Source: Bacteroidota bacterium (GTDB lineage Bacteria > Bacteroidota > Ignavibacteria > SZUA-365). From it: a stretch of DNA of 52,254 nucleotides. The stretch lies in contig JACZJN010000091.1 in NCBI GenBank assembly GCA_014860565.1, positions 1-52,254 of the forward strand, read 5' to 3'. Below, piece by piece: positions 3,232 through 48,950 of the stretch (the stretch's first letter is position 1; each line of letters begins with the position of its first letter). Made by a program: the position numbers and the translations under genes. A model generated the notes under the pieces. It made no database searches. It saw only the letters and a program-made list of their open reading frames with translations, and was not told the DNA's origin.

Positions 3232-3728
3232 AATCCGCTCTTGGTGAGGGGTATCTCACCACACAGCTCGACGCGCTCGTCGGCTGGGCGCGGAAGAATT
3301 CGCTCTGGCCTATGCCAATGGGACTTTCCTGCTGCGCCATCGAACTGATGTCCGCCGGCGATCCGCGGCATGACATTTCCCGCTTCGGCATGGAAGTCAT
3401 GCGATTCTCGCCCCGGCAGTCCGACGTCATGATCGTTGCAGGTACCGTCACATACAAGATGGCGCACGTGGTGCGCAAGATCTACGACCAGATGGCCGAA
3501 CCCCGCTGGGTGATCGCCATGGGCGCCTGCGCATCCTCGGGCGGCATGTTCCGCAGCTACTCGGTCGTGCAGGGCATCGACCAGTTCCTGCCCGTCGACG
3601 TGTTCACCGCCGGCTGTCCGCCGCGTCCCGAAAATCTATTCAACGCGCTGATCAAGCTGCAGGAGATCGTGCAGCAGTCCAGCGTGCTCGACTACCGCAA
3701 CAGCAACGAACCGATCATCGTCTCATAA
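3222..3728 (+). CDS. nuoB: NADH-quinone oxidoreductase subunit B (N2 cluster)
   Basis: This 168-residue peripheral-arm subunit carries the terminal 4Fe-4S cluster N2, which passes electrons to quinone. All four ligands are visible: the adjacent cysteines C37 and C38 in [11 protein letters not shown]103 in MGACASSGG, and C132 in AGCPPRPE. The length is normal for short bacterial NuoB. The ATG at 3222 lies inside the nuoA end. A 54-base gap separates it from nuoC. Nothing is missing or unusual. Confidence 0.97.
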
Positions 3729-10268: not shown

Positions 10269-11615
10269 ATGCTCCCACAGGAAATCATACGAAAACGGCG
10301 CGACGGGGAAGAACTGGGCAGGGATGAACTCGAGCAGTTCTTCCGGGCGTACCTTGACGATATGGTGACCGATTACCAGATGTCGGCTTTCCTCATGGCG
10401 TCGTACTACTCGCCGCTGACGATGGATGAAACGCTGGCGATCACCGACATCTTTATCCGCTCCGGGAGCCGGCTCGATCTTGCGGCGGTGTCGGGAGTGA
10501 AGGTGGACAAACACTCGACCGGCGGCGTGGGCGACAAGACGTCGCTCTTGCTGGTACCGATCGTAGCGGCCGCGGGAGTGCGCGTGCCGATGATTTCAGG
10601 ACGCGGACTCGGCCATACCGGCGGCACGCTCGACAAGCTCGAAAGCATCCCCGGCTTCCGGGTGCGGCTCTCACCGATGGAAATACTGCATCTGCTCGGC
10701 GAGACAGGGATGGTCATGGCAGGACAAAGCGATGATATCGTGCCGCTCGATCGCCGTATCTACGCCTTGCGCGACGTGACGTCGACGGTGGAAATCCTTC
10801 CCCTGATCGCGGCCAGTATCATGAGCAAAAAAGTGGCAGGGGGGGCGGATGCCCTGGTGCTCGATATCAAAACCGGCAGCGGCGCCTTCATGCGCGAACG
10901 CGTGCAGGCAGAAGAACTCGCCCTTCTTCTCGCCGGCGTGGGGAGCCATTTCAACCTGCCGACGGTGGGCTTGATCACGGATATGAACGAACCGCTCGGA
11001 CTTGCCGTCGGCAACTGGCTCGAGGTCGTCGAGGTGATCGACTGCCTGCAGGGACGCGAAACGCCGGACCTGATGGAAGTCACCTATGCGCTCGCAGGAC
11101 TGATGATCCACCTCGGCCGAAAGGCCCAGAGCGTGACCGAAGGCATCGCCGTCGCCCGTGACGTCGTGCGGCGCGGACTTGCCTTCGAACAATTCATGCG
11201 GCTTGTGCGCGGCCAGGGAGGTGATACCTCGGTGGTGGAGGAAACCCTGCGTTACCGCAACGCCTCGGCCATCGTCGAAGTGACCGCACCGCGCTCCGGA
11301 TTCGTTCGCGCGATCGACGCGCGCAAGCTGGGGATGCTGGCCGGGGAACTCGGAGCGGGCCGACGGAAGGTGACCGATACCGTGGATCCCACCGCGGGCA
11401 TCGTTCTGGCGAAAAAATGCGGCGATCGGGTGGAAGAGGAGGAAGTGCTCTGCAGACTGTACAGTTCTACCGTCCCCGAGCTGGTTTCGTATCGTGCAGC
11501 CGCCATCCGGACCTTCACGATAAGCGACGCGGAATTCCCTCGCACAGGGAAGATTTTTTCGTATTTTGACTCTGATACCATCGTTCCCTGGGGCGACACT
11601 GCCTCTCCCTTCTGA
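10269..11615 (+). CDS. Pyrimidine-nucleoside (thymidine) phosphorylase
   Basis: This 448-residue enzyme splits thymidine, deoxyuridine or uridine with phosphate into base and (deoxy)ribose 1-phosphate for nucleoside salvage. The family signature is clear: an N-terminal helical domain (YLDDMVTDYQMSAFLMA), the phosphate loop VDKHSTGGVGDKTS (about 80-92), SGRGLGHTGGTLDKLES, and KTGSGAFM further on. The C-terminal alpha/beta PYNP domain (about 345-435) is intact. The length fits Pdp/DeoA. The name pdp or deoA depends on substrate range, which the sequence does not settle, so no symbol is given. It stands alone, with 78 bases before the next gene. Confidence 0.93.
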   Translation: MLPQEIIRKRRDGEELGRDELEQFFRAYLDDMVTDYQMSAFLMASYYSPLTMDETLAITDIFIRSGSRLDLAAVSGVKVDKHSTGGVGDKTSLLLVPIVAAAGVRVPMISGRGLGHTGGTLDKLESIPGFRVRLSPMEILHLLGETGMVMAGQSDDIVPLDRRIYALRDVTSTVEILPLIAASIMSKKVAGGADALVLDIKTGSGAFMRERVQAEELALLLAGVGSHFNLPTVGLITDMNEPLGLAVGNWLEVVEVIDCLQGRETPDLMEVTYALAGLMIHLGRKAQSVTEGIAVARDVVRRGLAFEQFMRLVRGQGGDTSVVEETLRYRNASAIVEVTAPRSGFVRAIDARKLGMLAGELGAGRRKVTDTVDPTAGIVLAKKCGDRVEEEEVLCRLYSSTVPELVSYRAAAIRTFTISDAEFPRTGKIFSYFDSDTIVPWGDTASPF

Positions 11616-39625: not shown

Positions 39626-42331
39626 CTACTCCACGATGACCATCAGGCGCGAGGCGCTCTGCATGCCCTGAGTGAGAGTGAGCGAATAGACGCCGGCGGG
39701 GAGGCCGTTGCTGTCGAAACGGACACTGTGCGTGCCGGCAGGGTAGTAGCCGGCTGCGACTTCTCGCACGAGGCGTCCGAGCATGTCGTACACGCGGAGG
39801 GCGACAGGCGCACTGTTCCGGGATGCGACACTGAATCGGAGGGTGCCGGGTTCTCCGCTCCGCAGCGGATTCGGATACCCTGATGCGAGAGCCAGGCCGC
39901 TTGCCGCGGCGGAGAGTTCATCCACATCATTGACGGCAACACAGGGCAGTTCCTTCAGAAGAGTCGCCATGTTGAGCTTGAGTATATCGCGGTCGATGCG
40001 GTAGGGACGCAATCCGATATACATCATGTGGCCGCTTTCGCCTTCCTCGAACATCGCGGGTTTCGCCCAGATGCCGAGTCCGCGCGGCTGCGCGAAGGAC
40101 TGCGTTTCGGTGAACAGCAGTTGATTCTCGGGACGCAGGAGTGTCGTGCTGATCGTGTTCACCAGATTCTGGTCGCCGGTAAACGTCATGTCGAGAAGCG
40201 ACGCCATGTTGGCCTTGCAGTCCTGCGCAGAAGTGTAGTTCCCTGCCCAGGTGATGCCGAGGAACTGGCGAAAATCTTCGTTGATAAAGGAAGTGCCCAT
40301 GCGCGTAACGAGCAGGACGTTGCCGCCTGCCTTCAGGTATTCCATCATCGAAGTGTTACTCCACACGCTCTCGTCGCCGTTGTATGCGTTGCCGAGCCAC
40401 ACGATGGTGCAGTACTGTCCGAGCACGCTCGCTGGTATCGCACCGTTGCCGATGGGATCCGGCACACCGGCGGGATAATTGCCCGTGCCCTGCGGGAAGA
40501 TGTCCCACAGCGTGTAGGGCAGTCCGCCGCTGAAGACACTGTCGGCGAATGCAGCTTCAAGATCCGCGGTGTACGCTGCTTCCCCCCAGTCCACGCCATT
40601 GACGACAAGAATGCCCTTGTCGAACGTGGGGTTCTTCACCTTCTCCGACACGCGCTTGAGAATCCAGTTGTCGGGATCGATCTGCACGGATTGTGGTTTG
40701 GATGCAAAGCTGTACGTCCACTGCTGCGCTGCCTGATCGTTCCACACCGTAAGGGTGGTGTCGCCACCGTCGGCAAAGCGGATGAAAACAGGAACAGGCA
40801 TGGTGAAGAGTTGACGCGTTCCCTGGTATAGCTGCTCGAGATTCAAGGTGAAATCATAGCCGCTGCCGTTATCCGCGGCGTCCCAGTCCACCTGGTAGGT
40901 CGGAAAATATTCGCCATAAATCCATTCCTGGAAGAACCAGTCCAGGCTCGCGCCGTATTCGGCTTCCATGAATCCCTGGAATTCCTCGGTGGTGACGCTG
41001 CGGTAGGTGGAGAGGTCCTCGCCGCCGAGATATTTGCGTACGGCCGGGAAGAACTTGTCGTCTCCCATGACGCCGCGCAGCATATGCACGACCCAGGATC
41101 CCTTGTTGTAGCTCAGTGAACCGCTGAAAATCAGGTTGGGATTATTCTCGGGGTCGTGGACAAAGATGGTGCCCGGACCGAAATACATCGTCGTCGCCAT
41201 CGTCGCCTTGAGCGCTTCGAGGCCGCCCTGCGATTCATAGAACAGCGCTTCGCCGTATGTCGCCCAGCCTTCGTTGAGCCATATGTGCTCGAAGGTCGCG
41301 CACGTGACCTTGTCTCCGAACCACTGATGCATCAATTCATGCACCACGACGCCGGTGCCGTAGAAACCCATCGACGTGACGGTCTGATGTTCCATCGCGC
41401 CGCCCCACTCGTACTCGGCCATGCCGTACTTCTCCTTGATGAAAGGGTACGGAATGAAAAGATCGGAGTAGACGCGCAATCCTTCAAGCGCGTCCATTTC
41501 ATTCGGTGTCATGTTGGCCGCGGACATGCCGTACCACCAGCTTCCGAACGGCATGTCATATCCGCCGTAGGAGAAGGTGCGTTCGCGGAAATTGTACTCA
41601 GCCGCTGCGACCATCACCAGGTAGGTGACGATCGGGTAGCGCGTCTTCCAGGTCACGGTATGCGTGCCGTCGCCGTTGTCCACGTCGCTTTCCTTGAGAC
41701 CGTTGCCGACCGGGAATACGTTTTCTACGGTCGTGTAGACCATGTCGACCGAATCGGCCTTGTCCGCCGGATCGTCCTTGCAAGGCCACCAGTTGCGCGC
41801 GTCATAGGGCTCGGCCTGCGATGCGATGCTGAGGATCTGTTTGCCGAGTTCCACGTTGTTGACGCTGGTCACGTCAATGGCGCTGCCGGAGTAGGGGAAG
41901 GAATAGTAGGTCGTGACGTCGAGCATGTCCCCCTTCTGCAGGGAAAACGGAAGCGTGACCGCGAGCACATCGCCGCTGCGATTGAGTGCGGACGCGTCGA
42001 TCTTGCTGCCACGCACCACCACGCTGTCGAGTCGTGCGGTGGTTCCCAGATTGTATTCGAGCATGTTGAGTCCGTCGACAAGACTCGTGAGTCCCATCAC
42101 CACATTGCCGCCAAAGCGCGCGACGGGATCGTACGGGAGGTTCACATCGAGGCGATAATAATGCACGTCGTACTGTTCGGCGGCGGCGGAAACATGTTCC
42201 GCCCGTTTTGCCAGCATGGAGTATCGGCGCAGCTCTATTTCGTGTATGGACTGATGTTCGGCGTCCTGTGCCCACGCGGACACCGCAGGCAGGAGCATCG
42301 CGAGAACGATAACGGTTCGGAACAGCTTCAT
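39626..42331 (-). CDS. Secreted M1-family aminopeptidase with extra GATase-like domain and T9SS tail
   Basis: This 901-residue protein has a signal peptide ending AWAQ (about 17) and an M1 domain with WGGAMEHQTVTSMG (GAMEN-like) and the gluzincin site H331-E332-LM-H335 with E354 in LNEGWATYGEAL. The beta-domain is followed at about 585-800 by a class I glutamine-amidotransferase-like region (ILVVNGVDW, CTIVWLGNAYNGDE, MMEYLKAGGNVLLVTRMG) that lacks an obvious catalytic triad. A T9SS sorting domain ends it (SGYPNPLRSGEPG, MLGRLVREV, LMVIVE). The start at 42331 has GGAG seven bases upstream; a longer frame up to 42424 reads as noise. Probably a secreted or surface protease in peptide uptake. 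Confidence 0.9.
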   Translation of the reverse strand: MKLFRTVIVLAMLLPAVSAWAQDAEHQSIHEIELRRYSMLAKRAEHVSAAAEQYDVHYYRLDVNLPYDPVARFGGNVVMGLTSLVDGLNMLEYNLGTTARLDSVVVRGSKIDASALNRSGDVLAVTLPFSLQKGDMLDVTTYYSFPYSGSAIDVTSVNNVELGKQILSIASQAEPYDARNWWPCKDDPADKADSVDMVYTTVENVFPVGNGLKESDVDNGDGTHTVTWKTRYPIVTYLVMVAAAEYNFRERTFSYGGYDMPFGSWWYGMSAANMTPNEMDALEGLRVYSDLFIPYPFIKEKYGMAEYEWGGAMEHQTVTSMGFYGTGVVVHELMHQWFGDKVTCATFEHIWLNEGWATYGEALFYESQGGLEALKATMATTMYFGPGTIFVHDPENNPNLIFSGSLSYNKGSWVVHMLRGVMGDDKFFPAVRKYLGGEDLSTYRSVTTEEFQGFMEAEYGASLDWFFQEWIYGEYFPTYQVDWDAADNGSGYDFTLNLEQLYQGTRQLFTMPVPVFIRFADGGDTTLTVWNDQAAQQWTYSFASKPQSVQIDPDNWILKRVSEKVKNPTFDKGILVVNGVDWGEAAYTADLEAAFADSVFSGGLPYTLWDIFPQGTGNYPAGVPDPIGNGAIPASVLGQYCTIVWLGNAYNGDESVWSNTSMMEYLKAGGNVLLVTRMGTSFINEDFRQFLGITWAGNYTSAQDCKANMASLLDMTFTGDQNLVNTISTTLLRPENQLLFTETQSFAQPRGLGIWAKPAMFEEGESGHMMYIGLRPYRIDRDILKLNMATLLKELPCVAVNDVDELSAAASGLALASGYPNPLRSGEPGTLRFSVASRNSAPVALRVYDMLGRLVREVAAGYYPAGTHSVRFDSNGLPAGVYSLTLTQGMQSASRLMVIVE

Positions 42332-42404
42332 GGTAATCTCCGATGAGGGCGAAAGTATATCCATGCAATCTATTGTGATGTTTGATGCCGAACAATGGGA
42401 AAAG

Positions 42405-42510
42405 GCGCAGAGGCACAGAGGCACAGAGGGAACGGAGTCCGGCAGAGGAGGATGAGCCTTCAGGCTCGTCCGCGTGCGAACAGAATGGAGGATGGGCCTT
42501 CAGGCTCGTC
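42405..42510. repeat. Repeats in the divergent promoter region (CAGAGG motif and paired 24-mers)
   Basis: The 293-bp gap between the M1 gene and the porin gene holds tandem GGCGCAGAGGCACAGAGG (42406-42432), then two copies of GGATGRGCCTTCAGGCTCGTC, each preceded by GGA (42447-42470 and 42487-42510), exactly 40 bases apart. Each copy contains a GAGCCT-tc-AGGCTC type hairpin. No gene fits. Downstream of them the DNA becomes AT-rich (42540-42600), a likely site for the porin promoter. Confidence 0.6.
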
Positions 42511-42624
42511 AGTACTGTCGAGGAAGGAAAATATTCGGGCAAAGGGGTTGTGTATTTTTATGGGGCGCCCTATCTTTATTTATACCAAATCTAATTAACT
42601 GAAGTTTGGTTTACGGAGCATCTC

Positions 42625-43734
42625 ATGACACGATCCATTCTCATTTTTTCAGTCTTTCTCTTCGCGGCCGTTTTCGCAGTGGGAACTGCATACGGACAGG
42701 ACTCGGGCACCAATATCGGCGGGTACGGCGAAATTCATTACAACGAACCGGAAGGCAGCGGCAAGGGCGTGCTGGATTTCCACCGTTTCGTACTCTACGT
42801 CAATCATCAGTTCGATGACTGGGTGAGCTTCACTTCGGAACTCGAGGTCGAACACACCTTCGTCGGCCCTGAAGAAAATTCCGGTGAACTTTCACTCGAA
42901 CAGGCGTTTATCGAATTGCGTCCTTCCGACGCCATAGGTGTTCGCGCCGGCATCCTCCTGGTGCCTGTGTCGCTGATCAACGCGTATCACGAACCTCCGA
43001 CCTTCCACGGCGTCGAGCGTCCGAATTATCATCGCAACCTGATTCCGACGACCTGGCGCGAAGCGGGTGTGGGGATATTCGGTTCTCCCGTTCATGATCT
43101 CAACTATCAGGTCTACGTGATGAGCAGTCTTACGGCGGAAGGTCTTTCCGGTTCGAGCGGACTTCGCGGTGCCCGCCAGAAGGGGATTCTGTCCTCCACT
43201 GCGGACATTGCGGTGACAGGACGCATAGAGTATCTGCCGCTCCTCGGACTTTCCGTCGGCGGGTCGTTTTTCACAGGTGCGACGACCGGGGGAAACGCCT
43301 CCCTCGGCGACGGTACCGTGACCCTTCTGTCCGGCGACGTGCGATACGGTATCGGCAACCTGGCCCTGCGCGGCGAGGCGGCGATGATCAGCATCGCCGA
43401 TGCGGATAAACTCAACGCGGCGTTCGACAAGGGTGTCGCCGACAATCTCAACGGCTGGTACATCGAAGCCGCGTACAATATCCTCCCGCACCTGACGGCG
43501 GAGACCGAACAGCAGATGTACCTCTTCGGCCGCTACGAAAGGTATAACACGCAGGCGAAGGTGACCGGATTCACCGCGAACGATGCCTACGACCGCACGG
43601 AAATAACCGCGGGCATCACTTACAAACCCGTACCGGATGTCGCCTTCAAAATCGACTACCAGCTGTTCGACGATGCGCGCGACGCGGATGCGAAGGGCCA
43701 GTTCAACGCCGGCGTCGGGTATGCGTTTTTCTAA
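42625..43734 (+). CDS. Outer-membrane beta-barrel porin
   Basis: This 369-residue protein has a signal peptide ending TAYGQ (about 25) and alternating beta-strand sequence to a C-terminal Phe (FNAGVGYAFF), the usual last strand of outer-membrane barrels. The opening strands IGGYGEIHYN and DFHRFVLYVNHQFDDWVSFTSELEVEH, then FIELRPSDAIGVRAGILLVPVSLINAYHEPPTFHGVERP, resemble phosphate-selective porin O/P-like or DcaP-like barrels. The ATG follows GGAGCATCTC. Its end overlaps the next gene by 14 bases, tying it to the FMN-binding protein. The solute is unknown. Confidence 0.85.
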   Translation: MTRSILIFSVFLFAAVFAVGTAYGQDSGTNIGGYGEIHYNEPEGSGKGVLDFHRFVLYVNHQFDDWVSFTSELEVEHTFVGPEENSGELSLEQAFIELRPSDAIGVRAGILLVPVSLINAYHEPPTFHGVERPNYHRNLIPTTWREAGVGIFGSPVHDLNYQVYVMSSLTAEGLSGSSGLRGARQKGILSSTADIAVTGRIEYLPLLGLSVGGSFFTGATTGGNASLGDGTVTLLSGDVRYGIGNLALRGEAAMISIADADKLNAAFDKGVADNLNGWYIEAAYNILPHLTAETEQQMYLFGRYERYNTQAKVTGFTANDAYDRTEITAGITYKPVPDVAFKIDYQLFDDARDADAKGQFNAGVGYAFF

Positions 43735-44266
43735 AAACATCGCAGCAATTTTTCTTCTGTGTGCCGGGACCGTCTTCGGGCAGTCCCGGCAGCAGCTTGA
43801 AGACCTTGCCGTCAGTCTGTACGGACCGGGCAGTGCGATTCGAGAGATCGAACTCTCACTCTCTGCCTCGGATCTCGGGAAGCTGAACGAATCCAACGGC
43901 GCGATGCATCCCTGGGAGAAAGTGCGGGTCTATCCCATCACGAAAGCGGGGAAGTCCCTGGGCGCGATACTGGTGGATAATGTGAAGGGGAAGGCGCGTC
44001 CCATCACCTATGCCGCGGCCTTCGACGGGAAAGGCGACATCCTCGCACTTGAGATCCTTGCCTATCGCGAGTCGCATGGCGGAGAAGTTCAGTCCGAGGC
44101 GTTCCGGAAGCAGTTCGAGGGCAAGAGGCATGGTGATGCCATCGCGGTGGGACGCGACATCCGCAACATCAGCGGCGCCACCATCAGCAGCCGGTCAGTC
44201 ACCAAAGGCGCGCATGCGCTCGCAACGCTTCACCATTATCTGCAGGCACAAGGAAAGCTCGAATAA
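43721..44266 (+). CDS. FMN-binding domain protein (ApbE-type flavinylation site)
   Basis: This 181-residue exported protein has a signal peptide ending TVFGQ (about 21). The FMN_bind domain ends in the flavinylation motif DIRNISGATISSRSV, where T154 in SGAT is the residue that ApbE transferases link to FMN in RnfG/NqrC-type proteins. The middle has ILALEILAYRESHGGEV, also family-typical. It would be a periplasmic covalent flavin carrier. The ATG at 43721 lies inside the porin 3' end, and a four-helix membrane protein gene follows after 11 bases. No apbE is seen in the window. Confidence 0.88.
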   Translation: MRFSKNIAAIFLLCAGTVFGQSRQQLEDLAVSLYGPGSAIREIELSLSASDLGKLNESNGAMHPWEKVRVYPITKAGKSLGAILVDNVKGKARPITYAAAFDGKGDILALEILAYRESHGGEVQSEAFRKQFEGKRHGDAIAVGRDIRNISGATISSRSVTKGAHALATLHHYLQAQGKLE

Positions 44267-44277
44267 TCAGGAATGGA

Positions 44278-44808
44278 ATGAATCCGATAACCGCTTCACG
44301 CACCACGTTCCCCACCGTACGCGACTTGCCGCGTCCCCTGCGTCATCTTCTCGCGGCGTTCCTGATCACCGGGATGATCGGCTTCACCCTTGGCGCGTTC
44401 TTCGTCGATCATACGACGGGTACGGCGCCTTCCGGAATCGCCGAACGCTTTCGCGGCAGTGAAGGCATCGGCGTTGATCTCGAACAGATGCCGGCGGAGC
44501 GCGAAATCCAGTACGAGAAGTCCCCGAGCGAAATGCTCAACGTCACGCACACGCATATCCTCGCCCTGTCGATGCTCTTCCTGCTCACCGGGGGCATTTT
44601 CTCCCTCGCCACCGGCATTCCTCCCCGTCTCAAAGCCTTCCTCATCATCGAACCTTTCGTCAGTCTCATCGTCACCTTCGGCGGCATGTGGCTCGTGCGT
44701 TATCACCATCCCGGATGGGGATATGTGATCGCCGCAAGTGGGCTGCTGATGGCCGGCTGCTATTACGTGATGGTATGCGTTGGGGTGTACCAGTTGATGA
44801 GGCGATAG
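44278..44808 (+). CDS. Four-helix membrane protein with histidines at helix ends, unknown
   Basis: This 176-residue protein is predicted to have helices at about 24-43, 94-113, 118-140 and 148-174. A periplasmic-looking loop (44-92) joins the first two. Histidines cluster at the membrane borders: H45, H91 and H93 (VTHTHILAL), H143 and H144 (RYHHPGWGY), positions that could ligate heme b or a metal. I do not recognise a named family. It is co-transcribed with the porin and FMN-binding protein and could be the membrane electron donor of that module; this is inference. Confidence 0.75.
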   Translation: MNPITASRTTFPTVRDLPRPLRHLLAAFLITGMIGFTLGAFFVDHTTGTAPSGIAERFRGSEGIGVDLEQMPAEREIQYEKSPSEMLNVTHTHILALSMLFLLTGGIFSLATGIPPRLKAFLIIEPFVSLIVTFGGMWLVRYHHPGWGYVIAASGLLMAGCYYVMVCVGVYQLMRR

Positions 44809-47426: not shown

Positions 47427-47630
47427 ATGAATCTGCCCGATTTTGTCAAGGAGCGTCGGAAGCGGCTTGGGATGACTCAGGTGCAGTTGGCGGCCGCGGC
47501 TGGTGTGGGTCTGCGTTTTGTGCGGGATATCGAGCAGGGCAAGCATTCTCTTCGAATGGACAAGGTGAACCAGGTACTTTTCCTGTTTGGCCACGAACTG
47601 GCGGCCGTGCCGATGGAGCGTGAATCATGA
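47427..47630 (+). CDS. hipB: HipB-like XRE-family antitoxin/repressor
   Basis: This 67-residue protein is almost entirely an HTH_3 domain: DFVKERRKRLGMTQVQLAAAAGVGLRFVRDIEQGKHSLRMDKVNQVLFLFGHELAAVP, the y4mF/HipB pattern. It would bind the repeated sites upstream and, as part of the toxin complex, repress the operon. No strong ribosome site is visible (GGATGAG five bases before). Its stop overlaps the hipS start by four bases (ATGA). Confidence 0.9.
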   Translation: MNLPDFVKERRKRLGMTQVQLAAAAGVGLRFVRDIEQGKHSLRMDKVNQVLFLFGHELAAVPMERES

Positions 47631-47995
47631 CGCTGCGTTCGGGTATCGTGCGCATCGCTTCCTCCGACGCAGGTGTGATCTGGGAAGACGAGTACGGCAT
47701 CCACTTCCGGTATGAAAGTGAATGGCTCGGTCGTCCGGAAGCCGACGCGGTAAGTCTGACTCTCCCTTTGCGTCAGGAGGCGTATCACGACGAAAACATG
47801 CTGCCGTTTTTCGACGGACTCATACCCGAAGGATGGCTGCTCGACATCGCCATGAAAAATTGGAAGCTGGATGTCCGCGACCGGATGGGCCTGCTGCTCG
47901 CATGCTGTACCGACTGCATCGGTGCGGTGAGCGTGCATCCGGTTCGGGATGGAGATTTGCTTGTCCCGCACTCCCGGGAGGTCGGCGATGTCTGA
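47627..47995 (+). CDS. hipS: HipS-like protein (separate HipA N-terminal subdomain)
   Basis: This 122-residue protein corresponds to the N-terminal subdomain that precedes the kinase core in full-length HipA (the couple_hipA/HipA_N region): GVIWEDEYGIHFRYESEWLGRPEADAVSLTLPLRQEAYHDENMLPFFDGLIPEGWLLDIA. Here it is a gene of its own between hipB and the kinase gene. In the E. coli O127 HipBST system this small protein, HipS, is the antitoxin that neutralises HipT. A GGAG lies eight bases upstream; the 3' end overlaps hipT by eight bases. The HipS role is by homology and order. Confidence 0.87.
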   Translation: MTLRSGIVRIASSDAGVIWEDEYGIHFRYESEWLGRPEADAVSLTLPLRQEAYHDENMLPFFDGLIPEGWLLDIAMKNWKLDVRDRMGLLLACCTDCIGAVSVHPVRDGDLLVPHSREVGDV

Positions 47996-48950
47996 CTGTC
48001 TTGGCTGCTGTCTTCCCATCGAAGATCCATCGATGGAGTATCATCCCGCATGTGCGCACACTCTCTTCGGAAGCGATGCACCGCCGATCCTTCCGTATGC
48101 AATCAAGGACATCAATCGGCTCGCGAAGGAGAATGTCCTGCAGCGCGTCGCGGTTGCGGGTGTTCAGAAGAAATTGTCGCTGCATCTCCAGGGCGAACAG
48201 GGAAGCGCACAGCGCCTGACCATCGTCGGACTCTGGGGAGACTACATCCTCAAACCACCGACGGAAGAGTATGCCGAACTGCCGGAGCTGGAGCATGCGA
48301 CGATGCGGATGGCCGAGATCTGCGGGATCCAGATCGTGCCGAACGGACTTATCCGCATGAAATCGGGCGAACTCGCGTTCATCACGCGCCGCATCGACAG
48401 GCAGAAAGGCGGGGGCAAGCGCGCGATGGAGGACTTCTGCCAGCTCAGCGAGCGTCTCACCGAACACAAGTACCGTGGCTCGGTGGAGCAGGCGAGTAAG
48501 CTCATTCTTCGTCATACGGTAAATCCGGGATACGACCTCCTCCGGTTTTTCGAGTTGCTGGTTTTCTGCTTTCTTACTGGGAACGCCGACATGCATCTCA
48601 AGAATTTCTCGCTCTATCGACTGGCGGACGGCTATTCCCTCACGCCGGCGTATGATCTGCTGCCAAGCACCCTGCTGCTGCCTGATGATCCAGAAGAAAG
48701 CGCATTGACCATCAACGGGAAGAAGAATCGTCTGACGCGCGGAGATTTTCTTTCCGCTGCCTCGACGATGCGTATACCCGAACGTGCCGCGCTCAACAGT
48801 CTTGAGCGAATTATTGCTGCCGTGCCGGAATGCCGCACCTTCATCAAACGGAGCCGAGTCTCAGCACCAATGAGGAAACGCTACACGGCACTCATTGCCG
48901 CAAGGACCAAGCGACTTGTAAACACAGCGGAAGGAGCATCGCATGGCTGA
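47988..48950 (+). CDS. hipT: HipT-like serine/threonine kinase toxin (HipA C-terminal domain)
   Basis: This 320-residue kinase has an N-terminal CxxC...HxxC cluster (C4, C7, H19, C22) that may bind zinc. The Gly-rich loop follows (RVAVAGVQKKLSL, 53-65), then the nucleotide Lys K89 in DYILKPP, the catalytic D201 in GNADMHLKNFSL, and the metal-binding D223 in PAYDLLPS. HipT kinases phosphorylate a tRNA synthetase and halt translation. Autophosphorylated Ser residues of HipT/HipA lie two positions apart just before the loop Gly; here both positions (A55, A57) are Ala. The active-site residues are intact. The start at 47988 has GGGAGG seven bases upstream. Confidence 0.88.
   Translation: MSDCLGCCLPIEDPSMEYHPACAHTLFGSDAPPILPYAIKDINRLAKENVLQRVAVAGVQKKLSLHLQGEQGSAQRLTIVGLWGDYILKPPTEEYAELPELEHATMRMAEICGIQIVPNGLIRMKSGELAFITRRIDRQKGGGKRAMEDFCQLSERLTEHKYRGSVEQASKLILRHTVNPGYDLLRFFELLVFCFLTGNADMHLKNFSLYRLADGYSLTPAYDLLPSTLLLPDDPEESALTINGKKNRLTRGDFLSAASTMRIPERAALNSLERIIAAVPECRTFIKRSRVSAPMRKRYTALIAARTKRLVNTAEGASHG

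Follow-up and report, generated by a model that had tools for sequence, protein, structure and literature searches.

Many flavinylated proteins are without a known partner or role. The main text of a survey of flavinylation (PMC8238504) describes NapH-like, MsrQ-like, PepSY, DsbD and Rnf/Nqr-like proteins as membrane partners of flavinylated proteins, and the main text of PMC11334425 adds DUF4405/FezC. According to the main text of the survey, a link between flavinylation and iron reduction has already been proposed for PepSY and MsrQ systems, and the PepSY-like systems that are tied to iron reduction are repressed by Fur in two species. The term "porin" is absent from the main texts of both papers, in whose supplementary tables a cluster such as the one described here may be listed unnamed.

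The operon studied here lies in a window (i.e. the whole stretch of DNA that was analysed) of 52,254 nucleotides, contig JACZJN010000091.1 of a Bacteroidota bacterium (assembly GCA_014860565.1). A sequence-only reading of this DNA knew of no named system with the same set of genes, and indeed none is described in the main text of PMC8238504 or PMC11334425; a literature search returned nothing direct on this gene set. We consider it fairly probable that the trio is a periplasmic reductase module, induced by iron starvation, that reduces Fe(III) to allow its uptake. Its features are as follows:

42576 to 42598, strand not assigned: iron-box operator TTATTTATACCAAATCTAATTAA (21.4 bits), located 26 bases 5' of the start codon (ATG) of the porin
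42625 to 43734, plus strand: Porin_O_P-like outer-membrane porin of 369 amino acids with an apparent signal peptide (Pfam, 21.8 bits; homologue in place in 43 of 47 loci)
43721 to 44266, plus strand: periplasmic FMN_bind protein of 181 amino acids with an apparent signal peptide (Pfam FMN_bind, 38.4 bits; beside the four-helix gene in 46 of 46 assessable loci)
44180 to 44182, plus strand: codon of T154 in SGATIS, the predicted ApbE flavinylation site (GAT in 44 of 44 homologues; coupling to ApbE)
44278 to 44808, plus strand: four-helix inner-membrane protein of 176 amino acids, of no named family (AF2 model; no family over cut-off)
44548 to 44556, plus strand: codons of H91-T92-H93, an HxH motif at the start of helix 2 that is invariant (47 of 47 homologues)

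Layout and conservation of the gene trio

According to the sequence-only reading, the porin and FMN_bind genes overlap by 14 bases and the gene of the membrane protein follows after 11 bases. Both distances are borne out by the coordinates of the open reading frames (overlap at 43721-43734, gap at 44267-44277). Upstream of the trio lies a divergent gene for an M1-type peptidase (39626-42424, minus strand), while genes for an Lrp/AsnC regulator and glutamine synthetase are found downstream. Elsewhere in the window, two open reading frames of 122 and 333 amino acids (47627-48950) resemble, by eye, a HipA-type pair.

Genome searches were centred on Bacteroidota, the phylum of the window. Homologues of the four-helix protein were detected in 29 of 296 genomes of the phylum by a single-sequence search, in 41 of 395 genomes by a profile search (including a fragment), as well as in 8 of the 12 genomes within the window's own family. 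A scan of genome contigs gave two close relatives, and a tblastn search of plasmids with the four-helix protein gave no match. We read the surroundings of 47 four-helix loci from 12 Bacteroidota families. The contigs of 46 of these loci permitted judgement of the adjacent gene, and in all 46 an FMN_bind gene adjoined the four-helix gene (44 by HMM, 2 by tblastn). A homologous porin came first in 43 of the 47 loci; its position was taken by DUF6607 in one locus and by a different outer-membrane-like protein in two. Hence, the three families that the earlier reading had placed together form one conserved operon, and their grouping across 12 families is far beyond chance.

The porin passes the Porin_O_P cut-off of 20.9 bits only marginally. 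Its AF2 model was too poor for use (pLDDT 38.5), and a PDB sequence search with the porin found nothing. Six residues (E72, E74, E76, E92, H122 and R132) are invariant in 43 homologues, with glutamates alternating in one stretch. A porin sequence with alternating glutamates would be unusual for the OprP-type anion porins, and might serve the passage of cations or metals.

An operator shared with ferrous-iron uptake genes

Alignment of the upstream regions in the window's family revealed a strongly conserved block directly before the porin. We built an operator matrix from the regions upstream of fur genes that stand beside feoAB in 21 genomes, leaving out the copies of the operon itself. A palindromic Gibbs sampler (best of six runs) yielded the palindrome TTATTTAGATTAAATCTAAATAA, of which every one of the 21 training promoters has a site. 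One of these promoters (G255) belongs to the same gene cluster as a copy of the operon; the other 20 do not. The box was also present in 7 of 10 held-out feo promoters, and absent from most promoters of lone fur-family genes.

The operator at 42576-42598 scores 21.4 bits, has four mismatches to the consensus and is the best site in 16 kb. In the 300 bases 5' of the first trio gene, 32 of 46 loci have a site scoring 12 bits or more, whereas dinucleotide shuffles give an expectation of 0.65. In 30 loci the operator was the top site of the whole locus (6-16 kb). Elsewhere, the box precedes another gene that opens the operon, i.e. fur (G255), apbE (four genomes of genus g61), DUF6607 (G158) or fbpA (G359 and G375), and in two more box-bearing loci the start of the porin had been miscalled. 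With these other openers and miscalled starts counted, the 5' end of the operon carries the box in 42 of 46 loci, covering ten of the twelve families; families f2 and f39 have no box. Outside these positions, the 537 kb of loci contain only about five sites of at least 15 bits, of which two lie 5' of genes for TonB receptors. In the window's genome, fitting a pattern to both known sites gave matches at the operon, at fur-feoAB and at one other place, on contig 181, which had no convincing gene adjoining it.

These results show that the operon shares its operator with ferrous-iron uptake genes. Judged from the sequence, the regulator that binds it is probably Fur; a literature search returned nothing direct on a published Fur box for these lineages. 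The operator of the iron regulon, directly 5' of the trio, is the strongest clue and escaped the sequence-only reading; it suggests that the acceptor is Fe(III). The consensus is proposed as the iron box of these Bacteroidota lineages, and could be used to map iron regulons. In this respect, further sites before TonB-dependent receptor genes near the operon (L096, about position 3419; L103, about position 11360) are useful for defining the iron regulon.

Genes for Fur, FeoB or FbpA adjoin the operon in four families. The operon is preceded by fur-feoA-feoB in G255, by feoB in G004 and G228, and by fur in G164. In three genomes of family f31, the gene before the porin encodes a ferric-binding FbpA similar to TtFbpA (PDB 3WAE/4ELO, E 1e-91), a gene found in no other of the 47 genomes. 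There are about 70 copies of FeoB in the 47 genomes, of which three lie near the operon, in two lineages. The adjacency of FeoB alone is therefore modest evidence, much weaker than the operator. Beside the copy in the window there is no iron gene, and the same holds throughout the window's family; two FeoB genes and a fur-feo cluster, the latter on contig 197, are located elsewhere in the window's genome.

Several other arrangements were observed in single genomes, genera or families. In G158, the DUF6607 gene (L047, 6644-7570) replaces the porin before the FMN_bind and four-helix genes, with an iron box 132 bases 5', which suggests that DUF6607 is also part of iron physiology. In G152, a TonB receptor, with heme/zinc receptors as nearest models, precedes the operon, and a gene for a NusG domain II protein lies between the four-helix gene and apbE (L028, 1988-2719). 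The operons of genus g61 have apbE as first gene, and a PCuAC-type copper chaperone is encoded directly 3' (L042, 3971-4474; cluster c13 in L041, L045 and L118). Four genomes of family f3 have MsrB/SelR upstream of the operon (L037, 8551-8949; cluster c11 in L100, L115 and L117), with an apparent signal peptide in L100; a link to periplasmic methionine sulfoxide repair is possible. In family f39, whose loci are without an iron box, the gene order has changed: the four-helix gene precedes FMN_bind, followed by a small CxxCH protein (L108, 4794-5699 and 6947-7342; L054, 4785-5354), and in L108 a gene of the ethylbenzene-dehydrogenase type (EB_dh) comes first. A link to phosphate, seen by eye in PstS/PstC-like genes near the operon, was dropped as it concerned one genus only.

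Regulation by iron is no proof of iron reduction, and an iron-sparing role fits it too. This is the main rival explanation: a flavin chain would replace a periplasmic carrier with heme or Fe-S, passing electrons from quinol to a periplasmic reductase whose substrate is admitted by the porin. An iron operator predicts induction by starvation rather than the substrate, the flavoprotein has no obvious set of iron ligands, and flavinylated proteins and cytochromes can be functionally redundant between species according to the main text of PMC8238504. However, no terminal reductase is a constant neighbour of the operon, and the neighbours that do recur, in four families, are the iron-uptake genes for Fur, FeoA, FeoB and FbpA. 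We consider the iron-sparing role unlikely.

The predicted flavoprotein and its membrane partner

The FMN_bind domain is well above the Pfam cut-off of 22 bits with its score of 38.4 bits. The motif SGATIS begins at residue 151, which makes its threonine T154. A GAT acceptor site was present in all 44 FMN_bind homologues that we read. ApbE is encoded in 46 of the 47 genomes with the four-helix protein, the lone exception being an assembly of about 440 contigs, compared with 7 of 24 sampled genomes without this protein (Fisher p 5e-10, an optimistic value as the genomes are related). In 17 of 47 cases, ApbE is encoded inside the same locus (confirmed by Pfam for the three tested). Moreover, in 14 genomes the FMN_bind protein of the operon and the adjoining ApbE were the sole ones found, so that this ApbE would have few other targets, apart from any substrates outside FMN_bind.

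The genome of the window has one ApbE, on contig 30 (L055), in an apparent Rnf cluster that also holds the genome's second FMN_bind protein. This single ApbE would thus need to serve both RnfG and the FMN_bind protein of the operon. An Asp often occurs three residues before the S of SGAT. The flavinylation site in the window is without this Asp, which is absent too in 13 of the 14 single-pair genomes. The protein scored 32.0 and 35.6 bits against NCBIfam models of RnfG with cut-offs of 102 and 205, respectively, no other Rnf/Nqr subunit genes were recognised at the locus, and a PDB sequence search with the FMN_bind protein found nothing. Taken together, the sequence comparisons support well that ApbE would flavinylate T154, as had been suggested from the match of SGATIS to ApbE-type sites.

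The four-helix protein did not reach any Pfam or NCBIfam cut-off, and 28 relatives scanned individually gave no convincing family match. At E 0.1, none of the Pfam matches obtained for 29 members of the family was to NapH, MsrQ, PepSY, DsbD, NqrB/RnfD or DUF4405. The AF2 model of the four-helix protein (mean pLDDT 71.7) has long helices at residues 19-46, 83-108, 116-142 and 147-174. Hydropathy, charge and this model suggest a topology in which the N- and C-termini face the cytoplasm and helix 2 has its HxH at the end towards the periplasm. Foldseek gave no match to the PDB with E < 1, and a family profile against PDB sequences gave only an irrelevant match (E 0.03). VIA-align gave Z scores of at most 8.8, mostly with soluble helical bundles, for which such scores are common.

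The sequence-only reading had assigned a possible heme to two His pairs at helix ends, of which only one stood up. H91 and H93 are invariant in all 47 homologues, as is G60, and K81, F101, E125, P126 and F134 are nearly invariant. In contrast, the position of H143 is mostly V, I or L, and H144 is a His in 14 of the 47, by which a heme site at H143/H144 was ruled out. H91 and H93 are two residues apart on helix 2, and the conserved residues hence provide no pair of His on facing helices of one chain, as an ordinary bis-His heme site would need. Heme binding is possible only via a partner chain or dimer, or with another ligand.

The four-helix protein might instead be only a membrane anchor or assembly factor, with electrons coming from elsewhere, for instance from the Rnf of the same genome. 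Its sole invariant His pair lies on one helix and no cofactor is proven, and the ApbE of the window's genome sits in the Rnf cluster. This explanation seems improbable, however, since an invariant HxH and nearly invariant K81, E125 and P126 are beyond the needs of an anchor, while the 14 genomes with a sole FMN_bind protein speak against an RnfG or NqrC there.

Proposed electron path and comparison with known systems

The reduction of Fe(III) for uptake could proceed as follows. Scarcity of iron would release the operator at 42576-42598 from its probable regulator. The porin would let small ferric complexes into the periplasm. Near the HxH on the periplasmic side, the four-helix protein may draw electrons out of the membrane, with menaquinol as the likeliest donor, since the operon has no NAD-binding or other cytoplasmic domain that suggests another. 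Electrons would then pass to an FMN that ApbE would have attached at T154, and the reduced flavin would convert Fe(III) to Fe(II). Finally, Fe(II) may enter by FeoB, whose gene lies elsewhere in the genome of the window, and next to the operon in two further families. A single conserved His pair speaks against this scheme, as it offers no evident route from quinol to flavin.

The neighbours in family f39 would suit a respiratory role too, in which electrons from quinol pass via the flavin to an extracellular or periplasmic acceptor and the porin is part of an outer-membrane conduit. The genes of the porin and the flavoprotein overlap, and the f39 loci have their CxxCH protein, one with the EB_dh gene adjoining the pair. 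Yet, the loci contain no multiheme cytochrome, a single FMN domain of about 160 amino acids is probably too small to span the outer membrane, and an operator of iron starvation is the wrong switch for respiring iron. Such a role is therefore very unlikely. It is more doubtful still that the chain reduces another metal or oxidised periplasmic targets, such as Cu(II) or methionine sulfoxide, with iron regulation being secondary, because PCuAC after the operon in one genus and MsrB/SelR upstream in four f3 genomes are each confined to one genus or family, whereas the iron box extends to ten of twelve families.

Iron uptake in Bacteroidota is mostly discussed in terms of TonB receptors. If the proposed reduction of Fe(III) is true, Bacteroidota gain a reductive, porin-fed iron route. 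The operon provides a widespread, uncharacterised FMN_bind family with a porin and a partner in the membrane, along with a likely function in reducing iron during starvation. More tentatively, the four-helix HxH protein could found a new class of membrane oxidoreductases that carry electrons from quinol to flavin, with the operon being a porin-fed, non-TonB system of reductive iron uptake, under an iron box, in at least twelve Bacteroidota families.

The PepSY-like systems (DUF2271; VciB homologue) in the main text of PMC8238504 likewise combine a membrane protein, a flavinylated periplasmic protein and ApbE. As described there, however, their membrane partner has three transmembrane helices and a PepSY domain, compared with four helices, one HxH and no Pfam family here, and their flavin carrier is DUF2271 rather than FMN_bind; the porin is new here. 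MsrQ-like and DUF4405/FezC proteins are also small, multi-helix proteins with conserved His beside flavinylated proteins, some with links to iron (main texts of PMC8238504 and PMC11334425), but they have no sequence match to the four-helix protein, in which the sole invariant pair of His lies on a single helix. RnfG and NqrC share the FMN_bind domain and a Thr of the SGAT type, and the RnfG models of NCBIfam are the nearest curated matches; nevertheless, the score is far under the RnfG cut-offs, and a separate Rnf cluster is found elsewhere in the window's genome. The P19-FTR1 clusters in the main text of PMC8238504 also tie an FMN_bind protein to iron assimilation, whereas the operon has another membrane partner and no P19 or FTR1 was recognised here. 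Porin O/P (OprP-type) shares a weak Pfam match with our porin, which differs in its invariant acidic residues E72, E74, E76 and E92. Hence, flavinylation-linked iron reduction is of a known kind; the novelty here lies in the membrane partner and the porin, and in an operator shared with iron-uptake genes.
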